The notes beneath the pieces were generated by a model that was not told the origin of the DNA, made no database searches, and saw only the letters and a program-made list of their open reading frames with translations. From a virus: DNA of 57,354 nucleotides. Made by a program: the position numbers and the translations under genes. The stretch is taken from positions 1-57,354 of the IMG/VR virus record IMGVR_UViG_3300008120_007367; one strand, 5' to 3'. Of this stretch, positions 5,132 through 31,846 are shown piece by piece. How positions within the stretch are numbered: the stretch's first letter is position 1; every line of letters starts with the position of its first letter.

Positions 5132-5135
5132 AAAA

Positions 5136-7931: not shown

Positions 7932-7939
7932 ATAAGTCT

Positions 7940-9280: not shown

Positions 9281-9291
9281 AAGAGGAATAA

Positions 9292-12200: not shown

Positions 12201-15200
12201 TGATATGTTACTTTACACCCTGTATATACCCCCGTATACAGAAAATGTAAAAGATGTTCGTGTAGATTTCCAAAATAATCGTAGATTTACCATGAGGGAC
12301 ATTGGTGCGTTTGAAAATAGAATTAAAGGATTGGAATATTATGTCTCTTTAAATTCTTTAGAAAAAAATGCTAATGATTCTAAAATATTAGATGCTAATG
12401 GACTCGAAAGATCAAAATATGGAATTTTAGTTGACAATTTTACTTCAACTAGCGTTCAAGCTAATTATGGTGATGTAGGTTTTGATAATAGAAATAAAGT
12501 AGAAGATGGAGAATTAAAGCCAGCTTCTTTAATGAGTACGACTAAACTCCTATGGTCGGAAAGTACTTCTTCTGGTAGTTATAAGGTTGTGGGTACAAAT
12601 ACTCAAAAATCTTTGATTATGAATTATACTTCCACAAAATTTGCCGATCAACCATATGCAACTAAAACTATTCCTATTGCTAGTGCTCTTTATGGTAATT
12701 TTAATGGAACGTTAAAACTTTTCCCAGAGTTTACGAGTGACCATGATACTAGTGTTACAGCTAAAGTTACTTTAAACTCGGTTCAAGGATTAGAAGATGC
12801 CTTTAATTTCGTTGATGATAGATTAAATTACGTAGCTGAACAGAATCCAACTTGGCTAAGTGACAAAGATAGTCCTTTTGCAAAAGTTCCAGATTCTTCT
12901 TGGTTTGAAACAAAAACCACAGTTGAAAATAAGACAGTACAAATTAATAGAAATACAAATGGTAATTTACAAACCACTACTGATCAAGTTTATGTTAAAA
13001 CAGGAGCAACATTAAGTGCAGATCAGATTGGTGTGTCAACATCAAAACAGGATTTAGGATCTTATATTACAGACACAGCAATAAATCCTTTCTTAAAACC
13101 TAGAGGTATAGTTTTTATAGGATCTTCTTTAAGACCTAAAACGAGATTTTATTCGTATTTTGATGGCACATTAGTTGATAACTACACTATCGTTCCATCA
13201 AAAGTTACTTTAACTCAGAATACTCCATTTAAATCTGGAGAAATGGTTTTAATTGCCAATACAAATGCTGAATTATCAACTCATATAGATAATTATGCTT
13301 TAGATACTGGAATATACCATTTAGGTGTTTGTGCCGTTTCTGAAGTGGGATCAGCTAATGTTTCTATAGTAAATGAAAGTAGTTTGTCATTGAGTGGAAA
13401 ATATGTATATGGTCTAGATTCGAAAGAAACTAAAATTATTAGTTCAGTATTAGATCATCGTTGTGGAAATACAAAATCGGTAACATCCAGTACAATTACA
13501 TTAGCTGCAGATGCTCCAAGTGTAGACATTACTGGCAACACAGTAAGTTTGGTTAGAATTCAAACTACTGACGCTGATGTAAATCCTGCAACTGGAATTG
13601 GTTCCACTTACACAATTACTGCTTATAATACTACTACTAAAGTAGCTACAGTATCAGGAACAATACCTTCCTCCGAAGTAGGAAAAACATTTTCTTATAG
13701 TATAGGAACGAATGTTTCAAATAAAGCTGGCCAAATTGGTGGAATATTTTATCCACCACAAGCCACTTTCTTAAGTGGAGAAAGAGTTTATAGATTAACG
13801 GAGTCTTTCAATAACTCTTATGATAAAGATGCAATTTCTTTTGCCGATAAAAATTTTGTATCATCAGGTATAACAACAACAAAAACTTCTTTAGTTGATA
13901 CCGTATACAATATTGGAATAAGTAATCAAATTGTAGGAACTGTTACTTCACCATTGTTACAATCGACAACAGTTACAAGTACAATAACAAGCACTTGGAG
14001 AGTCGATCCATTAGCACAAACATTTTTTGTGGATGAACAAACTTACCCACATGGATTGTATTTGGAGAGTGTAAATTTATTCTTTAGTGCTAAGGATGAT
14101 GAAAACCTTCCAGTCAGAGTGCAAATTAGACCTACAGTAAATGGTACACCTTCTTTTGATTATTGGTATCCTGAATCTGTAGTTGAAAAATATCCTAGTG
14201 AAATAATTGTCTCAAACACACCTAGTATTAATGATAGTGCTACCAAAAATGTTTTTACTTTTAGTTCACCAGTATTTTTAAAACCAGGATTATATGCTGT
14301 TGTTATATTAACTGATTCTCCAGATTATGTTGTTTGGACAGCAGAAAAGGGACAAACAACATTAACTAATCAAACTGTTTCTGTTAACCCTTATGTTGGC
14401 ACTTTGTATAAATCACAAAATGCTATGGAATATGTTCCATATCTAAATGAAGATTTAATGTTTGAATTGAATCGTTGTGTTTTCAATACAAGTTCTGCAA
14501 CATTTTTATTACAGAGTGAGAAACAAGATTCAAAAATTTATATTGATAGATTTAGATTGTTGGAGAAGTCTATTACAACACAATCTAGTTCTCCAATATC
14601 AATTTCTTACTCAGTTATTACTAAACCAGTAAATTCATCGAAAGAAACAATTTATAGAAATATAACACCGTCTACAATTTATAGTATGGGAGATGACACC
14701 TTCTATTCTATAGGTAATAGAAGAAAAGAGTTACTAGATAAAAATGATTTTACAGTAAGATTAGAAATTTCAACTTCAAACGATGCTGTGACTCCTTTAG
14801 TTTCTTTAGAGAGTTTATATGTAAATACTTGGGAAAACTTTATTGATAATGGTGAAATTAATCCTGAAGATTTTAATATTATTGTAGCTGGTGCAAAGTA
14901 CTCAAATGCTAATGTGCTTACTGTTATTTCTTCCACAGGAGAAGGCGCAAATGTTGAAATAGTTGTAAATAATAGTACAGATGGAAATGTGGTTCGAATG
15001 AATGTCGCTTCATCTGGTATAGGATATGTTGATGACTTTTATATTTCATATCCACATACATCAAACAGTTCAACTGTAACAGCTAATGCCTCTATTGTAT
15101 TAAATAGTGAATTTGATAGTTCTGGTGGACCATGTTTGGCGAGATATATTACTAAACCTATTATTTTGACAGACGGATTTGATGCTGGTGATTTGAGGGT

Positions 15201-15531
15201 ATTCTTATCTGCCAATAAACCTGTTGGAACAGAAATTCATGTTTTCTATAAAATTTTATCTAGTTCTGATATTATAAGTTTTTCCGATAGACCTTATGGT
15301 AAATTTGAATGTTTGAATCCTAGTGTTAGTGGCGCAATAGATGAAACTGAATTTAGAGAATATGAATACCGACCTTCTCTAACAAGTGACGAATTGACTT
15401 ACACTTCTGATGCTGGAGTTATTTACGACACATTCAAAACATTTGCAATAAAGATTGTTATGACTTCGCGTGATCCTTCGGTAATACCGAGGGTTAAAGA
15501 TTTAAGAATAATTGCTTTGCCAGCAGGATAA
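9292..15531 (+). CDS. Giant DUF4815 baseplate/tail-fibre-connecting protein
   Basis: The 2079-aa product opens with the hallmark of the DUF4815 family found in marine T4-like phages: LFNYDPYNDDFDEDKNF, MRVLFRPGYSLQARELTQLQ, IEKFGNHIFKNGS. Such proteins are virion components, usually annotated as baseplate wedge (gp10-like) or fibre-related, and sit after gp8 as here. The remainder is beta-rich with many Ser/Thr/Asn residues. A C-terminal Gly-rich segment at nt 14873-15050 resembles the unit shared by gp6, the gp7-like protein and gp8. A good Shine-Dalgarno (AGAGGA, 9282-9287) precedes ATG 9292. The exact place in the baseplate periphery is inferred. Confidence 0.8.
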   Translation: MTKLFNYDPYNDDFDEDKNFMRVLFRPGYSLQARELTQLQTILSNQIEKFGNHIFKNGSPITGGKISLDDRAYYLILKGQYSGQDIVLENFLDKTIVSYNSSKVIRAKVIAIDNSTIFPILIVKYLSGDFFAEGDELKVYGQNIFAELEDANATGRSYVASIQEGVYYFKGQFVKVSPQFLVLETYYRLGLNTETINKQPSYRIGIEFDELVIDEIDDVSLLDPAQGSFNYQAPGATRFKINTILSKRTLDSADESSFFEVIRIVDGVKTKEIDYPIYNEIDKTLARRTFDESGNYTVDPFVISLEEEYVDTSNNNYVDPNYFTASLDPGKAYVGGYEVQTIAPTKLQVSRGRATASINDYDLPTNYSSYVHVANVYGTLVISNFELLDIHCANHASVSVASTTEYNSSKIGTVRANMIKYNKSSNPDLGTTHQFTVNLFDANTSSITGSVASSGSTNTVIVLPSSFAQLPANSYLGMFFSIKDGAGLNLAPVRIKESSGSSKTITLSSALPFVPSSNAFSIDSDFKFAESLIKRSGSKIFGADITDDSKTNDDNKYAFITEPNRQGLIFDVPFDAIKEDTITNFDFFARKVYSDKTSSGSGIITLAPEGTDTFAFAGTPGTLSDSVILDNIICFIRPDTSGGIPSIAPNTVLSLANNEYTVSAISSTEIRVNFDPTNTGLFGGIRADFIVTTKVNNAENGSTGAIRSKVLYPLSVSKHEKVAYMIDTTTGLTSLNTGTTTAFSGGYVFPELGVTYFDNETGAGDAGTVKKLKTPGVPVSLQVPDVLEIVKIIDSRTITGNITTAMLTDPLYDVTNRYEFDNGQRKTHYDHATIKLKRGFSSPVGSSIYVMYNYLSHGSAPSPQNDGLFTVDSYLNETSDITYATISKFVDKSTGKILSGRASFDFRPTRGIAQNTLSGAVCPDPDEIAEVSFENYLSRVDKVVVKPSKEMAIIEGQSAVKPLIPPHDITDMLLYTLYIPPYTENVKDVRVDFQNNRRFTMRDIGAFENRIKGLEYYVSLNSLEKNANDSKILDANGLERSKYGILVDNFTSTSVQANYGDVGFDNRNKVEDGELKPASLMSTTKLLWSESTSSGSYKVVGTNTQKSLIMNYTSTKFADQPYATKTIPIASALYGNFNGTLKLFPEFTSDHDTSVTAKVTLNSVQGLEDAFNFVDDRLNYVAEQNPTWLSDKDSPFAKVPDSSWFETKTTVENKTVQINRNTNGNLQTTTDQVYVKTGATLSADQIGVSTSKQDLGSYITDTAINPFLKPRGIVFIGSSLRPKTRFYSYFDGTLVDNYTIVPSKVTLTQNTPFKSGEMVLIANTNAELSTHIDNYALDTGIYHLGVCAVSEVGSANVSIVNESSLSLSGKYVYGLDSKETKIISSVLDHRCGNTKSVTSSTITLAADAPSVDITGNTVSLVRIQTTDADVNPATGIGSTYTITAYNTTTKVATVSGTIPSSEVGKTFSYSIGTNVSNKAGQIGGIFYPPQATFLSGERVYRLTESFNNSYDKDAISFADKNFVSSGITTTKTSLVDTVYNIGISNQIVGTVTSPLLQSTTVTSTITSTWRVDPLAQTFFVDEQTYPHGLYLESVNLFFSAKDDENLPVRVQIRPTVNGTPSFDYWYPESVVEKYPSEIIVSNTPSINDSATKNVFTFSSPVFLKPGLYAVVILTDSPDYVVWTAEKGQTTLTNQTVSVNPYVGTLYKSQNAMEYVPYLNEDLMFELNRCVFNTSSATFLLQSEKQDSKIYIDRFRLLEKSITTQSSSPISISYSVITKPVNSSKETIYRNITPSTIYSMGDDTFYSIGNRRKELLDKNDFTVRLEISTSNDAVTPLVSLESLYVNTWENFIDNGEINPEDFNIIVAGAKYSNANVLTVISSTGEGANVEIVVNNSTDGNVVRMNVASSGIGYVDDFYISYPHTSNSSTVTANASIVLNSEFDSSGGPCLARYITKPIILTDGFDAGDLRVFLSANKPVGTEIHVFYKILSSSDIISFSDRPYGKFECLNPSVSGAIDETEFREYEYRPSLTSDELTYTSDAGVIYDTFKTFAIKIVMTSRDPSVIPRVKDLRIIALPAG

Positions 15532-18999: not shown

Positions 19000-19734
19000 A
19001 TGATTGGAATTATTGGTTATGGAATGGTTGGACAAGCCGTTGAATACGGCTTTTCCAAAACCCAAGTTTTCGTTTGTGATCCGAAATATAATCACGTAAC
19101 GGTCAAAGGCCTCTGTTTATTAAATCCAGAGGCAATATTCGTTTGTGTCCCCACACCAACAGACGATACTAATTATTCATTGGTTACTTCAGTATTGAAT
19201 GAAATTTTCGAGATGAACTATCAGGGAATAGTTATAGTAAAGTCCACAATTTTGCCGCAATATCTTGAAAAATATGATATTGTGTATAACCCAGAATTTC
19301 TATCAAGATCAACCTCGAAAGAAGATTTTGTAAATCCACACTTATTAATACTTTCTGGTAAAAAATCTCAACAGGCTTTGGAACTTTATAAAAAACATTC
19401 TACCGTAGATACTGAAAATATTTTTGTAACAGATATTAATACAGCATCATTTATAAAATACACCATGAATTCCTTTTATGCAACTAAGGTAACTTTTATG
19501 AACTCTATGTATGAGGTTGCTAAAAAAATGGGTGTCGATTATAATGAAGCTATAACTGTTCTCTCTAAACATCCATGGATGGGATCCAATCATTTCAAAG
19601 TACCTGGTCCTGATGGTAAAAAAGGATTTGGTGGGCCTTGTTTACCAAAAGACACAGAGTGTTTAGTTAAAAATTATGATGTTGAAATACTTAAAAAAGT
19701 TTTGGAATTAAATCAAAAGTTTAGAAATGAATAA
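19000..19734 (+). CDS. Short UDP-glucose/GDP-mannose dehydrogenase-like protein
   Basis: This family oxidises the C6 hydroxyl of a nucleotide sugar to a uronic acid with NAD+. The 244-aa protein shows the Rossmann start GYGMVGQA (residues 6-13), VCVPTPT, the conserved VKSTI and YNPEFLS segments, and the catalytic-cysteine motif GFGGPCLPKD with C214. Usual members have about 390-450 residues; here the protein ends soon after the catalytic motif, so the C-terminal UDP-binding domain is missing. Since NAD site and nucleophile are kept, it may be a reduced active enzyme or use another protein for the sugar nucleotide. It starts 3 nt after the fibre stop and is the first gene of the accessory island. 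Confidence 0.82.
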   Translation: MIGIIGYGMVGQAVEYGFSKTQVFVCDPKYNHVTVKGLCLLNPEAIFVCVPTPTDDTNYSLVTSVLNEIFEMNYQGIVIVKSTILPQYLEKYDIVYNPEFLSRSTSKEDFVNPHLLILSGKKSQQALELYKKHSTVDTENIFVTDINTASFIKYTMNSFYATKVTFMNSMYEVAKKMGVDYNEAITVLSKHPWMGSNHFKVPGPDGKKGFGGPCLPKDTECLVKNYDVEILKKVLELNQKFRNE

Positions 19735-19802: not shown

Positions 19803-20909
19803 ATGGTAGTAGATATAAACGTAACAAGTATCTGCAATTTAGCTTGCACATATTGTTCCGAAGGTTTTGAATGTGGACTATCTACCGAGTTTGAAGAAAA
19901 TACTTCTTTGACATTAGATAATGTTGAAGAATTTATGGCTAAAATTTCTGATCCCAAAAAAGATGTTTATTTCTGGGGTGGTGAACCATTTGTTAATTGG
20001 GATTTTTGTAAAGGTGTCATAGAAAAATTTAAACATGATCCTGGTTTTTCTTTTTTCTTTTATACAAATGGAACGTATTTAAAGAGATATTTAAAAGATT
20101 TGGTTAGAATTCACAATGAGATTCCCGGTAGATTAAAGTTGCAGGTTTCATATGATGGAAAGCCTGTAAACGACATCGCCAGAGTGACTAAATCTGGTAC
20201 TCCATCGTCAGCAATGGTCAAAGCAAACTATATTGCAGCTAAAGAAGCTGGATTGAATGTTTCACTGAAATCTGTACTAACGTCTGAAAATTTCCACTTA
20301 ATCTATGAAGCCTTTTTGGATGTCATAGAAATGGATAAAAATTATTTTCCAACACCAGATTTATACAGCCAATTGACAGAAGAAGAATTTATGCCTAAAT
20401 TGGAAGTATTAAAGGATGGATTGAAGAAAATTGCTAAACATATTTACGAAAATAAATTACCTCCTGAGAAGTTTGGATGGTTCCAACAATCTAGAGCTCT
20501 ATGTGCAGCAGGTATAAATTACGTAAGTGTTGATTTAAACGGCGATTTGAGTCCTTGCCATGGATGCATGTACAAAGAATCGCATTCACATAAATTAGGA
20601 AATATTTTTAAAGTTGCAGATTTGGATCAGTTGATTGAAGAAAAATCTCAAATGTATAAGGATGCGTTGAAGAATCAACCTTTAGATTGTATGAACTGTG
20701 ACAGTCAATTCTGTATGAAATGTAATGCGGCAACTTATGAAAAATCAGAAAAAGAAACATATCTAGAAAAATGGAGTGATCATACAGCAAATTGGCAAGT
20801 CTGTAAAGTATTTAAGACAAACGAGATAGTACATCACGCATTAAGAACTGCACTAAAGAGTTATAAAAAGCCTGTAATTAAAATTCAGGCTGAACAGTGT
20901 ACAGTATAA
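19803..20909 (+). CDS. Radical SAM/SPASM protein 1
   Basis: Radical SAM enzymes cleave S-adenosylmethionine at a [4Fe-4S] cluster to start radical chemistry. The cluster motif is C11-NLA-C15-TY-C18, followed by the SAM-binding WGGEP at residues 58-62. The C-terminal part has the SPASM auxiliary-cluster layout: Cys-X12-Gly-X4-Cys (around DLNGDLSPC), then CMNCDSQFCMKC, then a last Cys at WQVC. SPASM proteins commonly modify peptides or proteins (anaerobic sulfatase-maturing enzymes, thioether-forming RiPP maturases). The 368-aa length is typical. It heads the cluster behind a good Shine-Dalgarno, and a second SPASM protein follows 9 nt later. The substrate is unknown; the Cys-repeat protein at 24377 is a candidate. 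Confidence 0.88.
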   Translation: MVVDINVTSICNLACTYCSEGFECGLSTEFEENTSLTLDNVEEFMAKISDPKKDVYFWGGEPFVNWDFCKGVIEKFKHDPGFSFFFYTNGTYLKRYLKDLVRIHNEIPGRLKLQVSYDGKPVNDIARVTKSGTPSSAMVKANYIAAKEAGLNVSLKSVLTSENFHLIYEAFLDVIEMDKNYFPTPDLYSQLTEEEFMPKLEVLKDGLKKIAKHIYENKLPPEKFGWFQQSRALCAAGINYVSVDLNGDLSPCHGCMYKESHSHKLGNIFKVADLDQLIEEKSQMYKDALKNQPLDCMNCDSQFCMKCNAATYEKSEKETYLEKWSDHTANWQVCKVFKTNEIVHHALRTALKSYKKPVIKIQAEQCTV

Positions 20910-20918
20910 GGATAATAA

Positions 20919-21917
20919 ATGTTTACATTAGAAGTAAGTGTTACTGAAAAGTGTAATCTAGGTTGTCCGTATTGTTATGTGGCAAACAGACCAACTTGGA
21001 TGACGAAAGAAGTTTTTGATCAGGGTGATAAATGTAAAGGTATTAATATCATCACAAATTTAACGATGATTGATCAAGATAAAGCTAATTATTTGAGAAA
21101 TAATGGTGTTGGCGTTTCTTGGTCTTTTGATGGTATGAGTTCTAATGAGAGTAGACCTTTACTTCCACTTTTGGAAAATACTAATCCAGAAACAGGCGAA
21201 TTGTTTGATGGTATACTTTCGATGTATGAATATAAGAAAGATATCATAAAGAATTTGACAAACGGATGTAAGGTCATGATATGGCCAGGAAATACAAAAG
21301 ACATGAAAGAGAATTTTGAATTTCTCTTAGATTGGGGTATAGATCATCCCGATTTTAGTATTGTTCGTGATGATGTTTGGACAGAAGATGATATAATACA
21401 GTTTAGATATGAATGTGAAAGACTTGCAGATTTTTGGATAGAAAAGATAAAATCTGGTAAACCATGTTCAGTAGGATTTTTAAAACTAGCTATTTTAGAT
21501 ATTCTCTATGGTTTAGTGAAAGGTAAAAGACCTTTTGGTTGTTTTGCTGGAACTAATGGTGGAGTATTGATGAGTTCTGGGGAATTCTACCCTTGCGCTA
21601 GGTTTGCATCCAAAAAAATTATGAAAATGGATGAACAGTATAATTTTAGGTACTATCAAGACATTTTTAATCCAAAAAATTATGATAAATGTGAACCGTG
21701 TGATTTGAAACAGGTGTGTAATGCCGGTTGTACATATTCTCAAATTATGAATGATAATAAACCATTAGATAGTATTTGTGAATTGTTCCACATATATTAT
21801 GAACAAGCAATGCGAGTGGTAGATGAGTGTAAAGACGAAAGAGTTTTCCAAGATTTGGTTTTAAATTATATCGAAAATGTTGGTGTTGAAAATGAAGGTG
21901 TGGAGTGTAGGAACTAA
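20919..21917 (+). CDS. Radical SAM/SPASM protein 2 lacking the GGE motif segment
   Basis: The 332-aa protein keeps the radical SAM cluster motif C12-NLG-C16-PY-C19. It also has the full canonical SPASM set: Cys-X12-Gly-X4-Cys (GEFYPC), then CX2CX5CX3C (CEPCDLKQVCNAGC) and a final Cys (SICELF). The odd point is near residue 35: MTKEVFDQ runs straight into GDKCKGINIITNLT. In related proteins about 40 residues with the GGEP strand and following helix stand there. An internal in-frame deletion therefore seems to have removed the SAM amino-group binding loop. It may be inactive as a radical enzyme and serve as a partner of protein 1, or bind SAM in another way. The gene sits 9 nt after protein 1. 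Confidence 0.85.
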   Translation: MFTLEVSVTEKCNLGCPYCYVANRPTWMTKEVFDQGDKCKGINIITNLTMIDQDKANYLRNNGVGVSWSFDGMSSNESRPLLPLLENTNPETGELFDGILSMYEYKKDIIKNLTNGCKVMIWPGNTKDMKENFEFLLDWGIDHPDFSIVRDDVWTEDDIIQFRYECERLADFWIEKIKSGKPCSVGFLKLAILDILYGLVKGKRPFGCFAGTNGGVLMSSGEFYPCARFASKKIMKMDEQYNFRYYQDIFNPKNYDKCEPCDLKQVCNAGCTYSQIMNDNKPLDSICELFHIYYEQAMRVVDECKDERVFQDLVLNYIENVGVENEGVECRN

Positions 21918-21918
21918 C

Positions 21919-22767
21919 ATGAAAATTGTTTCTTGCACCAGTCAAGATAAAATTCTTAGAATTAACTGGCATATATTAAATTGGTGTAATTTAAAATGTT
22001 CCTACTGTAATGTAAAGGAACATTTGAGTTATGATTATAATGATAATACTCAAATTTCAAATAATTATAAATTGATTATAAGTAGATTAAAAACTATTTC
22101 TAAACCTTTTGAGATTTGTTTGACTGGTGGGGAACCAACATTACATCCCAATATCGAAGATATATTAAGTGGATTAAATGAAATTGAAAATTTAACTAAA
22201 ATTTATTTTTTTACTAACTTAACTAGATCAGAAAATTTTTATAAAAATATAAAAAGTTTTTCGAAAGTTACATATTACGCATCCTTTCACCCCGAATATC
22301 ACAAAGAAGATTTTTTAGATAAGTGTAAAAATCTAAACTGTGAGGTTCATATAAGTATGATGCCTGAATATAAAAATTACATTTTGAAAATTATTGATAA
22401 GTGTAAGTTGGAGGATATAAAATTTACATTAAATTTTTTAAGAGACACAAAATATTATTCAAGTAATTTAGAAGAAGATTTTTTCGTAGAAGCTTCTACT
22501 GCTGAATCTATGATTGATATGGATGTTTTATATGATAATGGCTTTCGAGAAAATACTACAAATTTAAGATTATTATACGATAAAAAAAATAATTTCAAAG
22601 GCTATAAATGTTTACCGGAATCTTTTCAAATAGAATTAAATAATGTAGTTAAAAATGTTTGCACTAACGAAATTATGCCATTATCTTTAAAAGATATTAC
22701 GAAAAAGGTTATTTGTCCAAAAGAAGTTTGTGAAGGTGGACTTATGATGTATCCTAAGGAAATTTAA
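21919..22767 (+). CDS. Radical SAM protein 3 (short, twitch-like C-terminus)
   Basis: ATG 21919, just after the upstream stop, is preferred to the in-frame ATG at 21877, which would overlap protein 2; the product is then 282 aa. The cluster motif is C23-NLK-C27-SY-C30 and LTGGEPTLHP lies at residues 68-77. Near the C-terminus KCLPES, NVCTNE and CPKEVC provide four or more cysteines that could hold one auxiliary cluster, followed by EGGLMMYPKE. The layout resembles the proteins at 29358 and 31825, suggesting a phage subfamily. It overlaps the next gene by one base. Function beyond radical SAM chemistry is unknown. Confidence 0.85.
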   Translation: MKIVSCTSQDKILRINWHILNWCNLKCSYCNVKEHLSYDYNDNTQISNNYKLIISRLKTISKPFEICLTGGEPTLHPNIEDILSGLNEIENLTKIYFFTNLTRSENFYKNIKSFSKVTYYASFHPEYHKEDFLDKCKNLNCEVHISMMPEYKNYILKIIDKCKLEDIKFTLNFLRDTKYYSSNLEEDFFVEASTAESMIDMDVLYDNGFRENTTNLRLLYDKKNNFKGYKCLPESFQIELNNVVKNVCTNEIMPLSLKDITKKVICPKEVCEGGLMMYPKEI

Positions 22768-23096
22768 TGAAGAAAAATTTTAAAAGTATTGTATCTATAC
22801 CTATTAAAGTTGAGATGCAACCAGTTGAACATCAAAGCAATAAAGTTTTGACTGTTGATGATTTGTCGAAACAAATAGAAGAAGCTAAAAAGGGAAAAGC
22901 CAAAGTCGATAGTAAGTATGTAGGATTTGAACTGACTGAGAGAGGACATTTATTCGAATATAAATTTGATTATGTTAAATTTTTGGACAATATGTCATTC
23001 ATAATCAAAACGGCAAAACAGCGTAAAGAAATGAATCCTAATAATGTCTATACAATGGATAAAACTAAAAGTGCTAGACGAAAAAAAGAAATATGA
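22767..23096 (+). CDS. Small basic protein inside the radical SAM cluster
   Basis: The 109-aa product has no cysteine and no membrane segment. It is Lys-rich, with a central acidic-basic helix (DDLSKQIEEAKKGKAK) and a basic C-terminal tail (KSARRKKEI). It overlaps both neighbours (one base upstream, ATGA four bases downstream), so it is translationally coupled to radical SAM proteins 3 and 4. It might be a peptide-recognition or scaffold partner, but no known fold is recognisable from sequence alone. Confidence 0.55.
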   Translation: MKKNFKSIVSIPIKVEMQPVEHQSNKVLTVDDLSKQIEEAKKGKAKVDSKYVGFELTERGHLFEYKFDYVKFLDNMSFIIKTAKQRKEMNPNNVYTMDKTKSARRKKEI

Positions 23097-23986
23097 ACGC
23101 CGAAACTTTCAAAAAAAAGTATCCTCAAATAAATTTTTATGTAGGACATGAAACGGATAAAACTGTAACTAAAGATTCGGGAGTAAATGTATTATATTTC
23201 ACAAATAAATGTAATTTAGCTTGTACATATTGTTATGAAGATTTGCCTGGTCGCCCTCCACAAATTTTGTCTAAAGAAGATATTAAAAAAAGTATCGATA
23301 GAGTTATAGAAAGAGAAGATCCCAATAGTCAAACATTATTTGTTCTTTTTGGTGGAGAAGCTACTATGGAATGGGATAATGTTTGTTATGCCATGAATTA
23401 TGCCTATACAAAAAAGAAAAATGTTCATTTTAATTTAAACACAAATGGCATAAGATACCTAAAACAAAGTTTTATAGAGGAAACAAAAAACAATTTTTTT
23501 TATAAAAAAAACTTGTTAAGTATAGACGTTAGTTTTGACGGTATAGGAAATTCGGATAGAGTCACACACGGCGGCAAGGATTCAACTAATTTAATGATCC
23601 AAGTTTTCAGAAATTTGAGAAAAAACGCAATGAAATTTAGGATAAGATACACCATACATCACAAAAACGTTCATAATTGCTATGAAGATATGTCCAATAT
23701 TATTAGATATTTTAAACCAACCCGTCTTATAACATCCGTTGCGTGGGAAACTCTCAATAAAATTCAAATTGACTTGCTCCAAAACATGAAAGAAAGTCTC
23801 AGGAAAGATTGGATAAATAGGATAATTGATGTTCCAGTTTGTGAGTTATTTTGTGACATGTGTGATGGATGTGGTGAGAGAAAGGAAGTAAAAACTTATT
23901 TTACTGACGAGGGTAATGTAACCACATATGGTAATTATGAGAACTCCCCGAAATTTCATGATTTTAAAGAAAAGGTAATAATATGA
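23093..23986 (+). CDS. Radical SAM protein 4
   Basis: The 297-aa protein carries C40-NLA-C44-TY-C47 and the SAM-binding motif FGGEATMEW. The second strand of the barrel (NLNTNGIRYL) and SIDVSFDGI are as in peptide-modifying radical SAM enzymes. The C-terminal cysteines CELFCDMCDGC (C-X3-C-X2-C-X2-C) could bind an auxiliary cluster, but the arrangement differs from SPASM. They are followed by TDEGNVTTYGNYENSPK. The start overlaps the upstream gene by ATGA and the stop overlaps the next start by 4 nt. The N-terminal about 35 residues precede the barrel and could contact the substrate. Confidence 0.85.
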   Translation: MNAETFKKKYPQINFYVGHETDKTVTKDSGVNVLYFTNKCNLACTYCYEDLPGRPPQILSKEDIKKSIDRVIEREDPNSQTLFVLFGGEATMEWDNVCYAMNYAYTKKKNVHFNLNTNGIRYLKQSFIEETKNNFFYKKNLLSIDVSFDGIGNSDRVTHGGKDSTNLMIQVFRNLRKNAMKFRIRYTIHHKNVHNCYEDMSNIIRYFKPTRLITSVAWETLNKIQIDLLQNMKESLRKDWINRIIDVPVCELFCDMCDGCGERKEVKTYFTDEGNVTTYGNYENSPKFHDFKEKVII

Positions 23987-24375
23987 GCACTGATAGAGAA
24001 ATTGTAATTGAAAAGTTAACGAGTATTTCACAAAATATTAAAGAGATATCGGAATATGATGAAGGCCTCGCCAACTTAATTTGGATAGGTTTTGACACAG
24101 CTATGAGTTTAGCACAATCTATTTCTGAAAATAATGAGAAAAAGGAACAAATTGATATTTCTGTTTACATTCAACAAATTTGTGATGCTTTGGGTGTTGA
24201 TATTGAACAAATGGTTTTATCAATTATTCAAAATAACAATACTCAAGAATCTAGTAATAAAGAGCCGGACTTGGAAACTTTAGACTTTATAACATCCGAT
24301 CTTGATGACTATGAAAAGTTTTTAGCAAAAAGTTCAGCAAAAAATAATTTAGATTTTTTATCAAAGGAAATATAA
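23983..24375 (+). CDS. Small acidic helical protein, putative partner of the Cys-repeat protein
   Basis: The 130-aa product is acidic and appears mostly helical (EKLTSISQNIKEISEY, YIQQICDALGVDIEQMVLSII), with a polar Gln/Asn/Ser linker and an acidic C-terminal part (DFITSDLDDYEKFL). One cysteine only; no catalytic motif. It lies between radical SAM protein 4 (4-nt overlap) and the Cys-repeat gene (1 nt after its stop). This is where a recognition or chaperone protein for a modified peptide would be expected. No family recognised; the role is inference from position. Confidence 0.55.
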   Translation: MSTDREIVIEKLTSISQNIKEISEYDEGLANLIWIGFDTAMSLAQSISENNEKKEQIDISVYIQQICDALGVDIEQMVLSIIQNNNTQESSNKEPDLETLDFITSDLDDYEKFLAKSSAKNNLDFLSKEI

Positions 24376-24376
24376 G

Positions 24377-24985
24377 ATGGCTTTAGGTAAAATGTTTGAC
24401 ACTACTCTTGGAGTAGGTACTAACACAACTCCTGCTGGTGAACATAAAAGGCTATCAATAACTATACAAGGAACTGTTGGTAGTAATGCAGTGAATTATG
24501 ATCTTGCGAATGTTGTAGCTGGAGAGGATTTAATAACTAGATCGTTTTTTCAATCGCTGCTTGATAAAGCAAAAGAAGAAAATACGAGAAGGGGAGGCAG
24601 CGCCACTAAAGGTTCGTTATCAACAACAAACATTAGAGCTGCCGACTTTAATAATATCCGAGCACTTTTTGCTGTTGCCGATTCTAGGACAAATCAAGTT
24701 TATAATGATTGGTCTGGTGCAAATGCTAATTTGCCTAATGGTCCGACAGTAAATAGTCCCACAATAACAACCTTTCCTACTACTGCTGCACCAACTGGTG
24801 TTCCAGCAGCAGTTACCACAGATCCAGCAACTCAAATTAGAGCTACAATTCTGAATTCTCTCATTAATGCTTTGAATTCTGCTGGGCAAGTTTGCACCTG
24901 TAATTGTAATTATTGTACTTGTAATTGCAATTATTGTACATGTAACTGTAATTACGCATGTACCTGCAACTGTAATTACTCCTAA
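24377..24985 (+). CDS. Cys-repeat protein, candidate radical SAM substrate
   Basis: This 202-aa protein has an N-terminal part of about 115 residues with phage-virion flavour (ITIQGTVGSNAVNY, TRSFFQSLLDKAKEEN, IRAADFNNIRALFA). A Thr/Pro-rich linker (about 120-150) and a short helix follow, then a terminal 30-residue array. The array (residues 173-202) holds four copies of the heptapeptide CTCNCNY, the last two with one extra residue (A, S), giving 12 cysteines. The copies are identical in protein but differ in codons, so the peptide itself seems to be under selection. Coming directly after four radical SAM genes, it may be a RiPP-like precursor or a virion protein whose tail is cross-linked. 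A metallothionein-like metal binder is the alternative. Confidence 0.7.
   Translation: MALGKMFDTTLGVGTNTTPAGEHKRLSITIQGTVGSNAVNYDLANVVAGEDLITRSFFQSLLDKAKEENTRRGGSATKGSLSTTNIRAADFNNIRALFAVADSRTNQVYNDWSGANANLPNGPTVNSPTITTFPTTAAPTGVPAAVTTDPATQIRATILNSLINALNSAGQVCTCNCNYCTCNCNYCTCNCNYACTCNCNYS
24893..24982 (+). repeat. Four Cys-x-Cys-x-Cys heptapeptide repeats
   Basis: Four in-frame units encode CTCNCNY, CTCNCNY, CTCNCNYA and CTCNCNYS directly before the stop. Thr codons are ACC, ACT, ACA and ACC, and Cys and Asn codons also alternate. The repetition is thus conserved as peptide rather than as a fresh DNA duplication. Confidence 0.9.
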
Positions 24986-24996
24986 TTAAAAATATT

Positions 24997-25458
24997 ATGT
25001 TTTTTCAACTAAATCATTTAGAAGAAACCAATATGTCTTACATAAGACATTTTAATCATGGAATAAGATTGGGATCTTGGTTATTTTTGTGTTCCATCAT
25101 TTTTTTAATTTATTGTCTTTTCTCTTTAAAATTTTTAGAAAACTTTGTGATAGCACGAATAAACACAATGTATCATGGATTAATGTTGCGATGGTTTGAA
25201 GATGAAACATTTAATCGTGGAAAACCAGAAAAAGATGTTTTAGAAGAAAAGAAATATAAAAAGCAGTATGTAAAATTGATCGAAGATGGAATGATAAATC
25301 CTTTCAATAAAGTTAAAATATTTAATGGACTGTTAATTGCATCCATTACTAGTATAACACATTCTTTTATACCACAAATATTTGTGCATCATGCTGCCAC
25401 CAATGTAATAAGATTATATTTTAATTATAAAATAATGGAGAAATTAAATGAAAAATGA
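24997..25458 (+). CDS. Small membrane protein (DUF6356-like pattern)
   Basis: The 153-aa product has one strong transmembrane segment (about residues 27-48, GSWLFLCSIIFLIYCLFSL) and a second, less hydrophobic one near 110-125 (GLLIASITSITHSFIP). The beginning (NHLEETNMSYIRHF) and HSFIP resemble the short DUF6356 family, a weak match from memory. An in-frame ATG at 25033 would give a shorter form; the longer start keeps the NHLEET segment. It follows the Cys-repeat gene by 11 nt and overlaps the next gene by 11 nt. It might anchor a complex or help export, but there is no transporter motif. Confidence 0.55.
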   Translation: MFFQLNHLEETNMSYIRHFNHGIRLGSWLFLCSIIFLIYCLFSLKFLENFVIARINTMYHGLMLRWFEDETFNRGKPEKDVLEEKKYKKQYVKLIEDGMINPFNKVKIFNGLLIASITSITHSFIPQIFVHHAATNVIRLYFNYKIMEKLNEK

Positions 25459-25852
25459 TAGAGTTGAAATTGAAGGTATTGATGCGAATACTTATGCTGG
25501 AAAAGCAATTAATGCATGTAAGTTAAAAGCAAGAGGAATTTTTGGAGATGAACTTTTAACTTTTAAACTTTTGGATTTTGTAAGTTTTTTAATGTTAAAT
25601 AATGAATTTACGTCAAAAGGTTATTTTATTAGTGAACATAATAGGGAAGAAATTTATATAAAAATTATAGAAACTGGTGATATACAATTAATAAATGATT
25701 TGGAAAAATATATTAATCTTAGAGATTCTATAAAAGAATTACAAAGAAAAAAAGATGAATTTTACGATATTATTGAAAAATTAAATAATTTATCAAACTT
25801 GAATGATGAAACGAGTGTTAATGAAATTGTAGAGTCTTATCTAAGGAGATAA
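25448..25852 (+). CDS. Helical protein of unknown function
   Basis: The 134-aa product is charged and probably all-helical. The C-terminal half (LRDSIKELQRKKDEFYDIIEKLNNL) has coiled-coil spacing, and the N-terminal half contains CKLKARGIFGDELLTFKLLDF. There is no active-site motif or membrane span. It overlaps the membrane-protein gene and is followed after 2 nt by the next gene, whose Shine-Dalgarno (AAGGAGA, 25843-25849) lies within its last codons. Family not recognised. Confidence 0.5.
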   Translation: MKNDRVEIEGIDANTYAGKAINACKLKARGIFGDELLTFKLLDFVSFLMLNNEFTSKGYFISEHNREEIYIKIIETGDIQLINDLEKYINLRDSIKELQRKKDEFYDIIEKLNNLSNLNDETSVNEIVESYLRR

Positions 25853-26851: not shown

Positions 26852-27730
26852 GTGTCTTTAGTAAATCTGAGAAACTATGATTTAGTTATAACTACTTCAT
26901 TTGGTTTCAAATTTGGAATTTGTGGTCATTTATTTGAAATGATTGAATATTATTGGGCTATAAAAAATTGGACAAATCTAAATCCTTGTATACTATTGTC
27001 CGATGGTACTACAATAGACGAATTTAATATAGCTTTAAACACGAAATATGATAATCTAGTTGTTGAAAATTTAATATACCATCCTTTTCCAAAACTATTA
27101 TTGTCAAAAAATTTATTGATAGTTGACGGATCTTCAAGACTTGATAATTCGGAAATATATACAGATAATTTTTTTCTATTCAGATGTCATGAAAAAAATT
27201 ATGACTTTTATATAAACAATAAAGCGCAATGTCACTTATTTCAAGATTTTGAAATATATGATGATATTCCTAAAAAAATAAATGTTTTTGATTATAAGAA
27301 AAAATTATTATATTCAAAATTTAAAAAAATAAATGATGATGTAGAAAATTCTGTAATGTTTTATTTGACAGATGTTAGTAGATTTATGTCTGAAGAAACA
27401 ATAACTGAAATTTCCAATAAATATTCTTTCAACAACACAGTAGTATTTACAAATAAACCAGAACTTTATACAAAAATAAAAACATATAAAGTTCCAGTCC
27501 CAGACATGTGGAATAAATTTTCTACATATGTTTATACTAAATTACCTGGCAAAAAAGATTGTTCCAATAGATTTATTTTAGAGTGTATGCACTATGATAA
27601 AGAAGTTGTTTATGATATAGATTATTATGATAAAGCTTTAGAAATTAGAAAAAAGGATGGAATAAAAAATACATCTTTAGAACAAGGTGATTTTTTTATC
27701 AATTATATCAATGAACAAATTAAGTGTTAA
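26852..27730 (+). CDS. Putative glycosyltransferase-like protein
   Basis: The 292-aa product uses GTG 26852, the first start after the preceding stop. It has alternating hydrophobic strands and polar helices, and a conserved-looking C-terminal block (MWNKFSTYVYTKLPGKKD, CSNRFILECMHYDKEVVYDI). That is the type of acceptor/donor region seen in GT-B-like enzymes, where an Asn/Arg/Glu set contacts a sugar nucleotide. There is no unambiguous family motif. The neighbours (sulfotransferase-like, radical SAM, GT2) support a role in glycan or metabolite decoration. The end overlaps the next gene by 20 nt. Confidence 0.42.
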   Translation: MSLVNLRNYDLVITTSFGFKFGICGHLFEMIEYYWAIKNWTNLNPCILLSDGTTIDEFNIALNTKYDNLVVENLIYHPFPKLLLSKNLLIVDGSSRLDNSEIYTDNFFLFRCHEKNYDFYINNKAQCHLFQDFEIYDDIPKKINVFDYKKKLLYSKFKKINDDVENSVMFYLTDVSRFMSEETITEISNKYSFNNTVVFTNKPELYTKIKTYKVPVPDMWNKFSTYVYTKLPGKKDCSNRFILECMHYDKEVVYDIDYYDKALEIRKKDGIKNTSLEQGDFFINYINEQIKC

Positions 27731-28703
27731 AAAAATACTGATAGATTATGATAGACCTATTAACAATAGAGCTAAATTAGATACTGGTAAACTCTGTAAT
27801 TATAAATGTGAATTTTGTTACTATAAAAATAGTTTGTCTGAGAGAGATGAACTTGATAAAATCTACAAAAGAATAGATTATTTACTTGACTATGGCATAA
27901 AAGAAATCGATCTTAGTGGTGGTGAAAGTAGTGTAGAACCGAATTGGTTTAATATATTAAATTATTGCCAAAATAAATTTGATAGAATTAGTTGCCTTAG
28001 TCACGGAGGTAAATTTAGTGATAAAGAATTTATTCAAAAAAGTTTCGACTTAGGTTTAAGAGAGATACTCTTTAGTCTACATTGTACGGATGAAAGTGTT
28101 CATGATAAAATTGTAGGCAAAAAAGGAGCTTTTAAAAATTTAATTAAAGCTATTGAGAACTCCCACCGTTTAAATATTGAAGTTAGATTGAACACAACTG
28201 TATATCATGAAAACTACAATAAAATAGACACTTCTTTTATAAAATCTTTAAACCCCACCCAAGTTAATTTTATTGCTCTCAATTATTGGAGAGACAATAA
28301 AGATTTTTATCCTATTGATTACGGAACAATTTGTTCCTATGTTTCAAATTATATTGATGACCTTAAGGACTCAACCGAAGTTAATGCTAGATATTTTCCT
28401 TATTGTTTTATGCCATCAAAAGAAAAATATATAAAAAACCATTATCATCATATATATGACTTTAAAGATTGGAATAAAGCGGTTTATAGTGGAACATTAG
28501 ACACTAAAAAAAATTATACGCACAATGAAAAAGTAGAACATTCTTTCTCTGAAGCGGAACGAATGAGAATTTATAGTTACTTTAAAACCGAAGAATGTAC
28601 AAAGTGTAAATATTTTTATATATGTGATGGTATAGAAAATGAACTTAAAGATAAAGTTAGTCCAAATCCTGTTTTTGGAGAAAAGATAAGATTAATATGG
28701 TAA
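27711..28703 (+). CDS. Radical SAM protein 5
   Basis: ATG 27711 is preferred to the TTG at 27687 because it starts just before the conserved region; the product is 330 aa. The cluster motif C29-NYK-C33-EF-C36 and LSGGESSVEP are clear. ILFSLHCTDESVHDKIVG resembles the strand/helix of MoaA- and SPASM-like radical SAM barrels. The C-terminus holds CTKCKYFYIC, a possible auxiliary-cluster segment. It overlaps the gene before (20 nt) and the GT2 gene after (7 nt). The substrate is unknown; the surroundings are carbohydrate genes. Confidence 0.84.
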   Translation: MNKLSVKKILIDYDRPINNRAKLDTGKLCNYKCEFCYYKNSLSERDELDKIYKRIDYLLDYGIKEIDLSGGESSVEPNWFNILNYCQNKFDRISCLSHGGKFSDKEFIQKSFDLGLREILFSLHCTDESVHDKIVGKKGAFKNLIKAIENSHRLNIEVRLNTTVYHENYNKIDTSFIKSLNPTQVNFIALNYWRDNKDFYPIDYGTICSYVSNYIDDLKDSTEVNARYFPYCFMPSKEKYIKNHYHHIYDFKDWNKAVYSGTLDTKKNYTHNEKVEHSFSEAERMRIYSYFKTEECTKCKYFYICDGIENELKDKVSPNPVFGEKIRLIW

Positions 28704-29383
28704 ACATTGATTTATCTATTTTAATACTTACGCATAATAGGCCTAAACTTTTTGAAAGAAGTTTAAATTCAATTTTATCATATTTAACTCCAAAAATAGA
28801 AGTAATTGTAAATAATGATAGTTCTGATATAAAAGAAATTGAAAATACTAATGTAAATTATTATTATGAAAAATTTAATAATATATCAAGTGTATATGAA
28901 TTTTTATTTCTTAAGTCTAAAGGAAAATATATTTATTTTTTGGAAGATGATGACTATTTGAGGAAGCAATTTTTCGAACAAAGTTTTGATGCTGATATTA
29001 TAGCTGGAAATTATTGTCCTACCTATAAGCCAGATAATACTTTTGAAATAATAAATTTGTTTAAAGATGAAGTTATACACGATAAATGTGAATTTTTAAA
29101 TAAATTAAACTTAGAACATTTACAATTAGGACAATTTATATTTAAAAGAAGTGTAATTGAAGATTTTTATTTTGGAATAGATAACAATATTCATAATGAT
29201 ATTAGACTGGTCTATCACGCTTCACAAAAGTCGAAGAAATTTAGAATGACCAATAAAGTATTTTACTACCAAACAAAAGATGGTAATGATAATATTTCTT
29301 TTCCTGGAACAAAAAAAAGTATAAACGTAACGGCATCTTTGGACTTTTTAAAAAATTATGAAATACAAAATACAACATCATAA
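28697..29383 (+). CDS. Family 2 glycosyltransferase
   Basis: GT2 enzymes transfer a sugar from a nucleotide donor with a GT-A fold. The 228-aa protein starts with the usual strand and nucleotide-binding segment (LSILILTHNRPKLFERSLNSIL) and IEVIVNNDSS. It has the metal-binding acidic motif E83-D-D-D86 in YFLEDDDYL. It is on the short side for the family, so the acceptor-binding C-terminal part is small. ATG 28697 overlaps the radical SAM gene by 7 nt and the following radical SAM gene by 26 nt. Confidence 0.82.
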   Translation: MVNIDLSILILTHNRPKLFERSLNSILSYLTPKIEVIVNNDSSDIKEIENTNVNYYYEKFNNISSVYEFLFLKSKGKYIYFLEDDDYLRKQFFEQSFDADIIAGNYCPTYKPDNTFEIINLFKDEVIHDKCEFLNKLNLEHLQLGQFIFKRSVIEDFYFGIDNNIHNDIRLVYHASQKSKKFRMTNKVFYYQTKDGNDNISFPGTKKSINVTASLDFLKNYEIQNTTS

Positions 29384-30260
29384 AGATCAAGATCCGGATC
29401 ATATTAATATTCATTGGGATAGTCTTACTATTTGTCAACTCAAGTGTTCTTATTGTTACGCTAGAAATGAGTATGGTAAAGAATGGGGTAAACTATCTAG
29501 TAAAAAAACAATTGATGCTGTATTGGATGCTTTAAATCGAAGTAGTTTGAATTTTAATTTGGGTTTGTTGGGTGGCGAACCAACTTTAGGTCCTTATTAT
29601 TACCATATTTTAGACTCAATCAGTAAAATGGAGAAATTTAATTGGGTTTATGTTGTAACAAATGCTGAAAAGGATTTGACACTTCACCCACATTATGATA
29701 AACTGGCTTTCCTATTCAGTTACCACCCGGCCGATTGTACGGATGAAAATAGATTTCTCAATAATATACATCATATGCTGGGTAGAGGTTATAAATGTAA
29801 AGTGAATGTTATGCTTCACCATGATAAAAGTTTATGGCCAAAAATAAAAAATATGTTTGAAACTTTGGAAAAAATACCCAATTTAAAAATACATCCACAC
29901 TTTTTATATGGTAATAGTATCACTAAATTGTTTAACTATAGAAAAGATTTTTGGGAATATTTTTCTTTTTTAGAGTCGTATGAAAAAGAATTAAAATATG
30001 ATGATGATTTTTTTAATGATTATATTATATTTAGGGATAAATTAACCAATTTTAAAGGATGGAATTGTTACAACAATAATTATGAAATTGACGTTAGAGG
30101 TAACGTTGTTAAATTTTGTATGCCAAAAACTGATAATATTAATCTCATAAGCAATAGAGATTTTTTTAAAAATATAACCAAAACTGTTCCTATGGTTTGT
30201 CCACATAAAGCTTGCAATTGTGATGGTCTTTTAAAACAATTAAAAATTAAAAATGAGTAA
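29358..30260 (+). CDS. Radical SAM protein 6 (short, twitch-like C-terminus)
   Basis: The 300-aa product carries C26-QLK-C30-SY-C33 and LLGGEPTLGP. The C-terminal half contains Cys-X10-Gly-X4-Cys (VRGNVVKFC), then CPHKACNC before DGLLKQLK. This matches the layout of proteins 3 and 8, so the three probably share a subfamily and one auxiliary cluster. FLFSYHPADC is close to the YASFHPEY and VSFHYLE segments at the same place in proteins 3 and 8. The start overlaps GT2 by 26 nt and the stop overlaps protein 7 by 8 nt. Confidence 0.85.
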   Translation: MKYKIQHHKDQDPDHINIHWDSLTICQLKCSYCYARNEYGKEWGKLSSKKTIDAVLDALNRSSLNFNLGLLGGEPTLGPYYYHILDSISKMEKFNWVYVVTNAEKDLTLHPHYDKLAFLFSYHPADCTDENRFLNNIHHMLGRGYKCKVNVMLHHDKSLWPKIKNMFETLEKIPNLKIHPHFLYGNSITKLFNYRKDFWEYFSFLESYEKELKYDDDFFNDYIIFRDKLTNFKGWNCYNNNYEIDVRGNVVKFCMPKTDNINLISNRDFFKNITKTVPMVCPHKACNCDGLLKQLKIKNE

Positions 30261-31011
30261 GATTGTTGAATGGGAAATTACACTTAAATGTAATTATAAA
30301 TGTGAGTATTGTACAAATTTGGATCCTAGTATGCGACCAGAATTGACTGAAGAAAAAATAAAAGATTTTATAAAAAAATTAGGTGAGACATATCCCGGTG
30401 TAGAAATATTTATTTTTGGAGGGGAACCATTTGTTCATCCAAAAATAAATTTTATAATAAAAACATTTAATGAATATAATATTCCATTTGTTATACAGAC
30501 GAACTTCAGTAGTTATAGTAGAAAAACAATTCAAAAAATAAAAGATCCATTTAAAATTAATATAAGTGTTCATCCTACAGAAACGTCTATAGAAGATATA
30601 GTTCAGGGATTAAAAGATACTAAAGTTAATATTAAAACTATAGATGTGATGTACACCGGTAAAGAAGCTATAGATTATTATTTTGCAGTAAAAAAATCTT
30701 TAGACCACGACAATTTATTTTTAACTCCAGTAACAGACTTTGGTGATGGTCATAGTGATACTTTACTCGCACAATATCTTTCTTTAAAAAACAATTTAAT
30801 GTATCGAAAAATAATTAAATTTGAAGATATTGAAAGACTAGGTAAACAACGAAGTGATCTTTGGATAGATTCTAATTTTAACACTTTTGGAAAACCTTGT
30901 TTATATAAAGATAAATACTTCCTCTACTCACCCAACTTAGATTTGTATAACTGTTGTTATAGAATCAAAGTCAACAAATTGTGCCCGAAAACAAAATGTT
31001 TTCTAATGTAA
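30253..31011 (+). CDS. Radical SAM protein 7 (compact)
   Basis: At 252 aa this is the shortest of the set. C13-NYK-C17-EY-C20 and FGGEPFVHPK define the SAM cluster, and NISVHPTET the following barrel strand. The C-terminal cysteines (PCLYKD, NCCYRI, CPKTKC) are many but not arranged as SPASM. TTNLDPSMRPELTEE after the cluster resembles activating-enzyme-like short proteins. It overlaps protein 6 by 8 nt, and a U32-like gene follows 1 nt after its stop. Confidence 0.84.
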   Translation: MSKIVEWEITLKCNYKCEYCTNLDPSMRPELTEEKIKDFIKKLGETYPGVEIFIFGGEPFVHPKINFIIKTFNEYNIPFVIQTNFSSYSRKTIQKIKDPFKINISVHPTETSIEDIVQGLKDTKVNIKTIDVMYTGKEAIDYYFAVKKSLDHDNLFLTPVTDFGDGHSDTLLAQYLSLKNNLMYRKIIKFEDIERLGKQRSDLWIDSNFNTFGKPCLYKDKYFLYSPNLDLYNCCYRIKVNKLCPKTKCFLM

Positions 31012-31012
31012 T

Positions 31013-31846
31013 ATGAGATATCTTTTAGCCGGAGCTTTTAGTAAGTTTGTTCCCTTAATAAAATTTTTAAGTCAAAACATAGTCGATTCTAAAGAGTTGG
31101 TGGTTTATGACGGCATTAATAAATGTAAATGGAATGGAGGTAGAATAAACAGGGATGTTTATTATAAAGATAATTTGATAGAATATTATTATAGTAAGAA
31201 TATCAAGATTGCTTTAACATTTAGTAATCATAATATTGATTTGACTGACGAATTGGGAAATCATTTACTGGAGAAATTTCACAAAAAAGGAAATGCTTTA
31301 ATTATTGTGAATGATGACTTGAGAAAATATGTTAGAGAAAAATTTCCATTATACGATTTAATTTACAGTATTACTGGAATGGGACTATTAAACATACCTT
31401 TACAAGATAAAGATATAGAATTTTATAAAAAATTGGAAGAAAATTATGATTGGATCGTTCCTAGGTTTGAACACATATTTGATCCTAGGTCTAACGAACT
31501 GGACAAAACAAAGTGGGAAGTAATGCTGAATGATACTTGTGTTTATGGATGTAAACATTGGGATGCACACTTCAAGGCAATTGCAGATGAAAATACCGCC
31601 GGTAGACCGTATAGTAAGGAAGTGGAAGAATGTTGGCTTCCTAAGTTTGATTTCAACAAAGATAGTAAATATGAATGTATGGATATAAAACCATTAGCGA
31701 TGGAAAAATTAATAAAAGATGGAGTTAGGAGTTTTAAAATTACTGGTAGAGAAATGAAAGATGATGAATACTATGGAGAATTAATGAGATTCGTTTTAAA
31801 TAGCAAATCTGTTAATATTGTAAAATGGCCAACTGGGAAAAAATAA
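31013..31846 (+). CDS. U32-like Fe-S protein A
   Basis: The 277-aa product has two signatures of the U32 family: LNDTC-VYG-C followed by an H six residues on (C176, C180, H186), and GVRSFKITGREMK at about residue 240. A third and fourth cysteine (EECWLP, YECMD) lie between. Members such as UbiU/UbiV and TrhP/RlhA bind a [4Fe-4S] cluster and perform or assist oxygen-independent hydroxylation. The N-terminal segment KCKWNGGRIN is shared with the paralogue at 34093. The end overlaps the next radical SAM gene by 22 nt. Calling it U32-like is fairly secure; its substrate is not known. Confidence 0.65.
   Translation: MRYLLAGAFSKFVPLIKFLSQNIVDSKELVVYDGINKCKWNGGRINRDVYYKDNLIEYYYSKNIKIALTFSNHNIDLTDELGNHLLEKFHKKGNALIIVNDDLRKYVREKFPLYDLIYSITGMGLLNIPLQDKDIEFYKKLEENYDWIVPRFEHIFDPRSNELDKTKWEVMLNDTCVYGCKHWDAHFKAIADENTAGRPYSKEVEECWLPKFDFNKDSKYECMDIKPLAMEKLIKDGVRSFKITGREMKDDEYYGELMRFVLNSKSVNIVKWPTGKK

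Follow-up and report, generated by a model that had tools for sequence, protein, structure and literature searches.

The maturase CteB acts on a small six-Cys bacterial peptide, and QhpD forms Cys-to-Asp/Glu thioethers within a protein subunit, not a secreted peptide. The radical SAM (rSAM) enzyme PapB takes Cys-Xn-Asp motifs with n of 0–6, in both in-line and nested arrangements (PMC9413430). Among phages, CP220 and CPt10 have 11 and 12 rSAM genes, respectively, and a 21-bp repeat within CPT_0180 and its counterpart; that work suggested a metabolic role for the rSAM genes and did not link them to the repeat (PMC2853527). The hypervariable host recognition cluster of pelagimyophages differs between phages by rSAM cassettes and holds sugar genes (PMC7029224), and 261 phage instances of ‘ahbD’ have been recorded (PMC9301287). 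Here, we analyse positions 19,803–24,985 of IMG/VR virus record IMGVR_UViG_3300008120_007367, whose full 57,354 bases we call the window. A single tight run at this locus comprises four rSAM genes (A–D), two small genes (s1 and s2), and a gene whose product ends in an array of Cys repeats. We favor the explanation that SPASM-type rSAM enzymes mature this fiber-associated protein at its array, most likely by forming thioethers; the combined statement is graded as probable because its core is independent of the exact bond. The literature searched, which comprised open papers, gave no description of a phage fiber being modified by rSAM enzymes.

The cysteine array and its radical SAM neighbors

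The proposed substrate is the 202-aa product of the Cys-array gene (24,377–24,985, + strand, as are all genes of the run), which consists of an N-terminal domain and a C-terminal array and terminates in CTCNCNYCTCNCNYCTCNCNYACTCNCNYS. The array itself (24,893–24,979) is made of four CTCNCNY units that hold 12 Cys, with an Ala before the last unit. The original prediction described one peptide written in varying codons, and the codon read-out agrees: units 1 and 2 read TGC-ACC-TGT-AAT-TGT-AAT-TAT and TGT-ACT-TGT-AAT-TGC-AAT-TAT, and units 3 and 4 read TGT-ACA-TGT-AAC-TGT-AAT-TAC and TGT-ACC-TGC-AAC-TGT-AAT-TAC. Across 54 arrays, adjacent units differ mainly at synonymous sites, with a pN/pS of 0.12 that is partly built in by a search pattern that fixes the Cys positions. 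Tandem units with synonymous codon differences rule out chance as the source of the array, and its presence in many independent contigs and isolates rules out an assembly artifact.

The array types seen, heptads and hexads among them, include CTCNCNY, CPCNCNF, CICNSDCACN, CTCNVD, CDCDARTGVAV, and others. Common to them is a core of CxC followed by N/D/Q/H, found in 96% of heptads and 69% of the other types, while repeat number ranges from 4 to about 25 units and Cys content reaches 86. Array proteins with about 80–86 Cys are encoded at L191 10240–11334 and L041 6681–7721, and the array protein of L011 (4351–5139) is Cys-rich in its N-terminal domain as well (MTYCSCLACGSVCC...). Tandem array proteins occur within one phage each at L024 (four, 7285 being the end of a stretch that starts at 4721) and L040 (three, 7386–9443); these share the array and differ in their N-terminal parts.

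In the predicted structure, the N-terminal domain (170 aa) is folded, with a predicted local distance difference test score (pLDDT) of 80–90 over much of its length, and the unmodified array is disordered (pLDDT 34–37). A fold search with the Cys protein returned no significant match among viral or solved structures, and neither Pfam nor NCBIfam gave any match for it, metallothionein families included. By tblastn, the whole protein had no match among cultured phages; repeat-specific searches succeeded.

The run starts with rSAM A (19,803–20,909), a 368-aa SPASM-type enzyme that is, of all families, the most tightly tied to Cys arrays. It is followed by rSAM B (20,919–21,917; SPASM-type, 332 aa in this record), rSAM C (21,919–22,767; phrog_13987), s1 (22,767–23,096), rSAM D (23,093–23,986; 297 aa, closest NCBIfam relative PapB), and s2 (23,983–24,375). 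The 109-aa accessory protein s1 is present in 19 heptad-type loci, and 22 loci have s2 (130 aa), which is encoded directly 5′ of the array gene. rSAM D has matches in 37 loci, part of them to other rSAM families, and rSAM C adjoins the array in close relatives only. For rSAM C, ATG 21,919 is more likely the start than the mechanical first ATG at 21,877, which gives 296 aa, because the relative in L070 has 282 aa. With this start, the junctions of the run are +9, +1, −1, −4, −4, and +1 nt, so that the predicted tight packing held, with all genes in place and couplings of −4 to +9 nt.

The assignment of four rSAM proteins, two of them with SPASM domains, was likewise borne out. Pfam family PF04055 matches A (8.8e-16), C (4e-11), and D (3.1e-12) above cut-off, and the whole window holds eight such matches, seven above cut-off. 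rSAM A also matches the SPASM domain PF13186 above cut-off, and CxxxCxxC, GGEP, and seven SPASM Cys are invariant across 17 sequences of its family. rSAM B, whose core is deleted in part, matches the Pfam rSAM family weakly (17.8 bits, cut-off 29.5), and its SPASM domain exceeds the TIGR04085 cut-off (29.7 versus 27 bits). Within NCBIfam, A, B, and D match NF047865 (PapB) best (5e-22, 6.1e-25, and 1.9e-22), at 78.5, 88.1, and 79.9 bits against an equivalog cut-off of 340. QhpD (TIGR03906) matches A (3e-14) and D (4e-14), far under its cut-off of 453 bits, and the solved structure nearest the rSAM A profile is the SCIFF maturase CteB (5wgg, 6e-25). An intein containing a LAGLIDADG domain splits one rSAM A gene (L165 7750–9921).

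In its closest relatives, rSAM B is 374 aa long. The difference is an in-frame deletion of 126 bp (42 aa) that takes out GGEP, kept by all 10 aligned relatives. The deletion junction is unique to this record, and B is intact in 12 loci on contigs nearly identical to this one (100% over 10 kb, 99.97% over 9 kb). The loss is either real and private to this record or an error of assembly, so that the window’s B is probably inactive as read.

Co-occurrence of arrays and radical SAM genes

The original prediction proposed a database search for joint occurrence of array and rSAM genes, and held that arrays commonly found without rSAM neighbors would speak against it. In the forward direction, viral contigs were scanned for one unit and tandem arrays were then kept; single-unit DNA matches were rejected as evidence, many being chance 35-aa frames or unrelated. 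At least three rSAM genes (range 3–16) are present in 44 of 45 records with heptad arrays and, in total, in 50 of 53 array records (median 8), corresponding to 36 of 38 distinct arrays. Arrays without rSAM genes were confined to three records, all on contigs of 16–44 kb: the array fragments L092 (22.7 kb) and L093 (16 kb), and L013 (43.8 kb). Among bacterial and archaeal genomes, just two contigs contained tandem units, both with an rSAM-like gene near the array.

The control set was collected by an S74 motif (SDxRLKxN type) irrespective of Cys and comprised 19 new records of at least 20 kb. Six of these carry 5–12 rSAM genes, and exactly those six have another Cys array (CICNSDCACNLVCDCNGNCGCNY type) directly before S74. 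Of the other 13, six to eight were read around the motif and the array detector covered the rest; like five contigs with a chance single match, they have at most one sub-threshold rSAM match. Controls with at least three rSAM genes thus number 0 of 18 (Fisher p 9e-13, de-duplicated).

In the reverse direction, we searched for relatives of rSAM A and sought Cys-rich genes within 9 kb. A Cys-rich array gene was present in 54 of 59 rSAM A family loci (L126–L183, L203); the misses were three short contigs (L135, L151, L152), one contig in which the array gene is truncated (L144), and L150. Across diverged lineages, the array gene commonly starts 0–5 bp from the rSAM A stop, and by an equal motif test 58 control loci (520 kb) contain zero rSAM genes. 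Hexad and heptad types require five changes on the rSAM A tree, against a mean of 17.2 after shuffling. Distant rSAM matches in human faecal phages had no Cys array nearby. The pairing of array substrate and rSAM enzymes is well supported by this co-occurrence, and the neighboring enzymes very likely act on the array as their substrate; the predicted rSAM modification of a 12-Cys protein is supported.

These patterns bear on whether the array is instead a metal-binding site (for Zn, Fe, Cu, or an Fe–S cluster), as a metallothionein-like or metal-stapled tip, while the rSAM enzymes serve otherwise. CxC-rich stretches are typical of metallothioneins, metal-stapled fiber tips are known in T4-type phages, and the array alone is predicted to be disordered, all of which would suit such a role. 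A metal-binding array would nevertheless leave unexplained the near-absence of arrays without rSAM genes, the abutment of rSAM A and array genes, and the tracking of the enzyme tree by repeat type; with no Pfam metallothionein match either, we consider it quite unlikely.

The same patterns bear on a second possibility, that arrays and rSAM genes travel independently of each other in a hypervariable host-recognition island and that the rSAM enzymes work on a glycan or other metabolite, by making or altering it. Such a cluster is known from pelagimyophages, with varying rSAM cassettes and sugar genes (PMC7029224), and sugar, halogenase, and transketolase genes lie nearby in the window. Passengers would not be expected to leave S74-motif contigs that lack a Cys array essentially devoid of rSAM genes, nor to keep A-type and array genes coupled within 0–5 bp across diverged lineages, and this reading appears very improbable.

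A second pairing of Cys repeats with rSAM genes, of other spacing, was seen in the cultured jumbo phages phiEaH2 (Erwinia; L227 3099–4143) and SNUABM_29 (L232 3115–4137). Three small proteins with similar N-termini, partly overlooked by annotation, are encoded in a row before two rSAM genes; two have long Cys/Ser/Gly repeats (DCGGTCSWSCSNGCSASCTSCSGTC...), and the third has a short Cys-rich end.

A proposed cross-linked tip in the tail fiber region

The Cys-array module lies between tail-fiber genes of the window. Across loci, arrays occur close to the C-terminus of their protein, and fusion to S74 is frequent. S74 chaperone domains (PF13884) stand above cut-off right behind the array in L080, L168, and L171; among 54 heptad proteins, 29 run on into an S74-like start and 12 stop within 6 aa, and the window’s array protein stops before any S74. 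A glycine-rich tail-fiber domain precedes the array in L081, and a collagen-like fiber gene lies upstream of the array gene in L092 and L095. The original prediction had left open a RiPP-like (ribosomally synthesized and post-translationally modified peptide) or a virion-protein modification. The virion branch fits better because of the S74 fusions, the position in the tail-fiber region, and the 170-aa N-terminal domain, and because neither a RiPP recognition element (RRE) nor a small secreted peptide was apparent. The RiPP-like branch fits less well: at 202 aa here and 172–534 aa in several relatives, and with its predicted folded N-terminal domain, the Cys protein is not a short precursor with leader and core. 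The AlphaFold model of s1 is helical, at low confidence (pLDDT 59), and not RRE-like.

We propose that a phage-encoded protein-maturation module sits in the host-recognition (tail-fiber) region, in which several rSAM enzymes, at least one of them SPASM-type, would act on the repeated C-terminal CxC[N/D] array of a fiber-associated virion protein. Most likely, thioethers would link the sulfur of Cys with an Asn, Asp, Tyr, or Thr close by, in the manner of PapB, CteB, and QhpD; a repeated CxC[N/D] array would suit PapB’s tolerance of Cys-Xn-Asp with n of 0–6. Cross-linking would stiffen a flexible repeat into a knotted tip, which we infer to serve rigidity or the binding of a receptor. Self-cleavage of the S74 domain behind the array in relatives would leave the array as the extreme, distal end of the mature fiber; in the window, the gene simply ends at the array, with no S74 to remove. 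Judging from the genes and domains around it, the array protein is likely located at the fiber tip in the virion.

On the bond itself we are evenly divided: given that the array is the substrate, a Cys thioether has, by analogy, an even chance. Other rSAM reactions on the array would be D-epimerization, C–C or C–O links at Tyr/Asn, conversion of Cys to formylglycine, or an S-linked sugar added via neighboring glycosyltransferases. Further matches of the rSAM families include anSME, MoaA, and other enzymes, the cluster holds sugar-related genes, and in heptads Tyr and Asn are almost as regular as Cys. Set against this, A, B, and D are most similar to thioether-forming enzymes (PapB; CteB/SCIFF), and Cys is the residue common to all array types, which leaves a different reaction unlikely.

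Several observations weigh against rSAM maturation of the array. The rSAM proteins score far under the curated NCBIfam cut-offs of known maturases, and no PqqD-like (RRE) Pfam match was found in the 14 rSAM proteins tested. Agreement between repeat type and enzyme tree comes partly from vertical inheritance and near-copies. L150 encodes an A-type rSAM (9001–10086) that is the single rSAM within 16.7 kb and has no array, and might point to another substrate, and L013 has an array yet no rSAM on its 43.8 kb. The CPT_0180 product was not among 11 identified virion bands of CP220. Finally, 3–16 rSAM genes exceed the need of one substrate, so some of them probably do something else. On balance, we consider that diverse phages with fiber-like Cys repeats and rSAM genes probably cross-link their host-contacting tip by radical chemistry. 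It is possible, though we would place it somewhat short of even, that a broad class of tailed phages carries a covalently cross-linked, Cys-knotted fiber tip made by rSAM enzymes, that repeat length and type vary as receptor-facing parts do, and that much rSAM ‘auxiliary metabolism’ is virion maturation.

The observation behind the original prediction was confirmed, with corrections concerning rSAM B, the promoter, and the extent of the locus. Its promoter-like gap found no support: a promoter and terminator scan was not above chance (38 promoter-like sites versus 35 in shuffles). Its limits hold for the genes named, and the module reaches further, with four more rSAM genes in a second run at 27,687–32,898 (+; 27,687–28,703, 29,358–30,260, 30,253–31,011, and 31,825–32,898) that encloses a family 2 glycosyltransferase (28,697–29,383, +). 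Between the two runs lie ‘post2’ (phrog_25260; 25,448–25,852, +), conserved downstream of both array types (29 of 41 loci), and a conserved family without assigned function (phrog_24441; 26,852–27,730, +; 27 of 41 array loci). Profiles of s1, s2, post2, and a 293-aa family returned nothing meaningful from the PDB. Upstream of the cluster are baseplate genes (2651–9280), a 2079-aa protein without assigned function (9292–15,531), a tail fiber gene with a self-cleaving C-terminal domain (PF11962; 15,784–18,996, +), and a UDP-glucose dehydrogenase gene (19,000–19,734, +) that occurs in 17 of 41 array loci. Downstream are a tail-fiber assembly protein (42,469), a fiber-like 1756-aa protein (43,006–48,276), and an open 2910-aa frame. 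Besides the glycosyltransferase gene, epimerase, two tryptophan-halogenase-like, and 2-oxoglutarate oxygenase genes lie between the fiber genes; at 35,743–39,987, within the fiber region, the two halogenase-like genes stand with two transketolase-like pieces and an epimerase.

Comparison with described systems

If the proposed maturation is correct, rSAM modification of a virus structural part would be new, as far as the literature searched shows. Many phage rSAM genes at present classed as auxiliary metabolic genes or recognition-cluster cassettes (PMC7029224) would gain a function, perhaps including some of the 261 ‘ahbD’ instances (PMC9301287). The arrays would also supply a large natural set of repeats on which enzymes that cross-link peptides could act.

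The window’s region resembles the pelagimyophage host recognition cluster (PMC7029224). Among isolates, the Campylobacter phages CP220, CPt10, and CP21 (Firehammervirus) have 11 rSAM genes, an A-type included, and encode a 534-aa protein that bears a CTCDCNY/CTCNCNY array. In CP220 the array is borne by gp140, near the tail sheath, tail tube, fiber attachment, and A-type rSAM (gp136) genes; we equate gp140 with CPT_0180 because it is the sole gene with an intragenic repeat. About 2 kb separate array and A-type rSAM in these phages, which are thus not adjacent there. Being cultured, the Campylobacter phages make the proposed maturation testable now.

Bacterial maturation systems offer partial parallels. 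TIGR04115 (CXXX repeats) and NF038107 (Cys at every fifth position) likewise set a repeat-Cys substrate beside an rSAM/SPASM gene, but their matches here are weak and under curated cut-offs, and they differ in Cys spacing and in their bacterial setting. CteB is, like rSAM A, SPASM-type and the nearest solved structure; rSAM A differs in that it starts at CxxxCxxC, with no leader-binding domain ahead. QhpD is the nearest parallel to a structural use, although its substrate is an enzyme subunit and not a virion repeat. PapB is like A, B, and D by top NCBIfam match and works on repeated Cys-Xn-Asp units; its substrate is a short precursor peptide with a leader, whereas here it would be the CxC[N/D] repeats at the C-terminus of a phage fiber-like protein.

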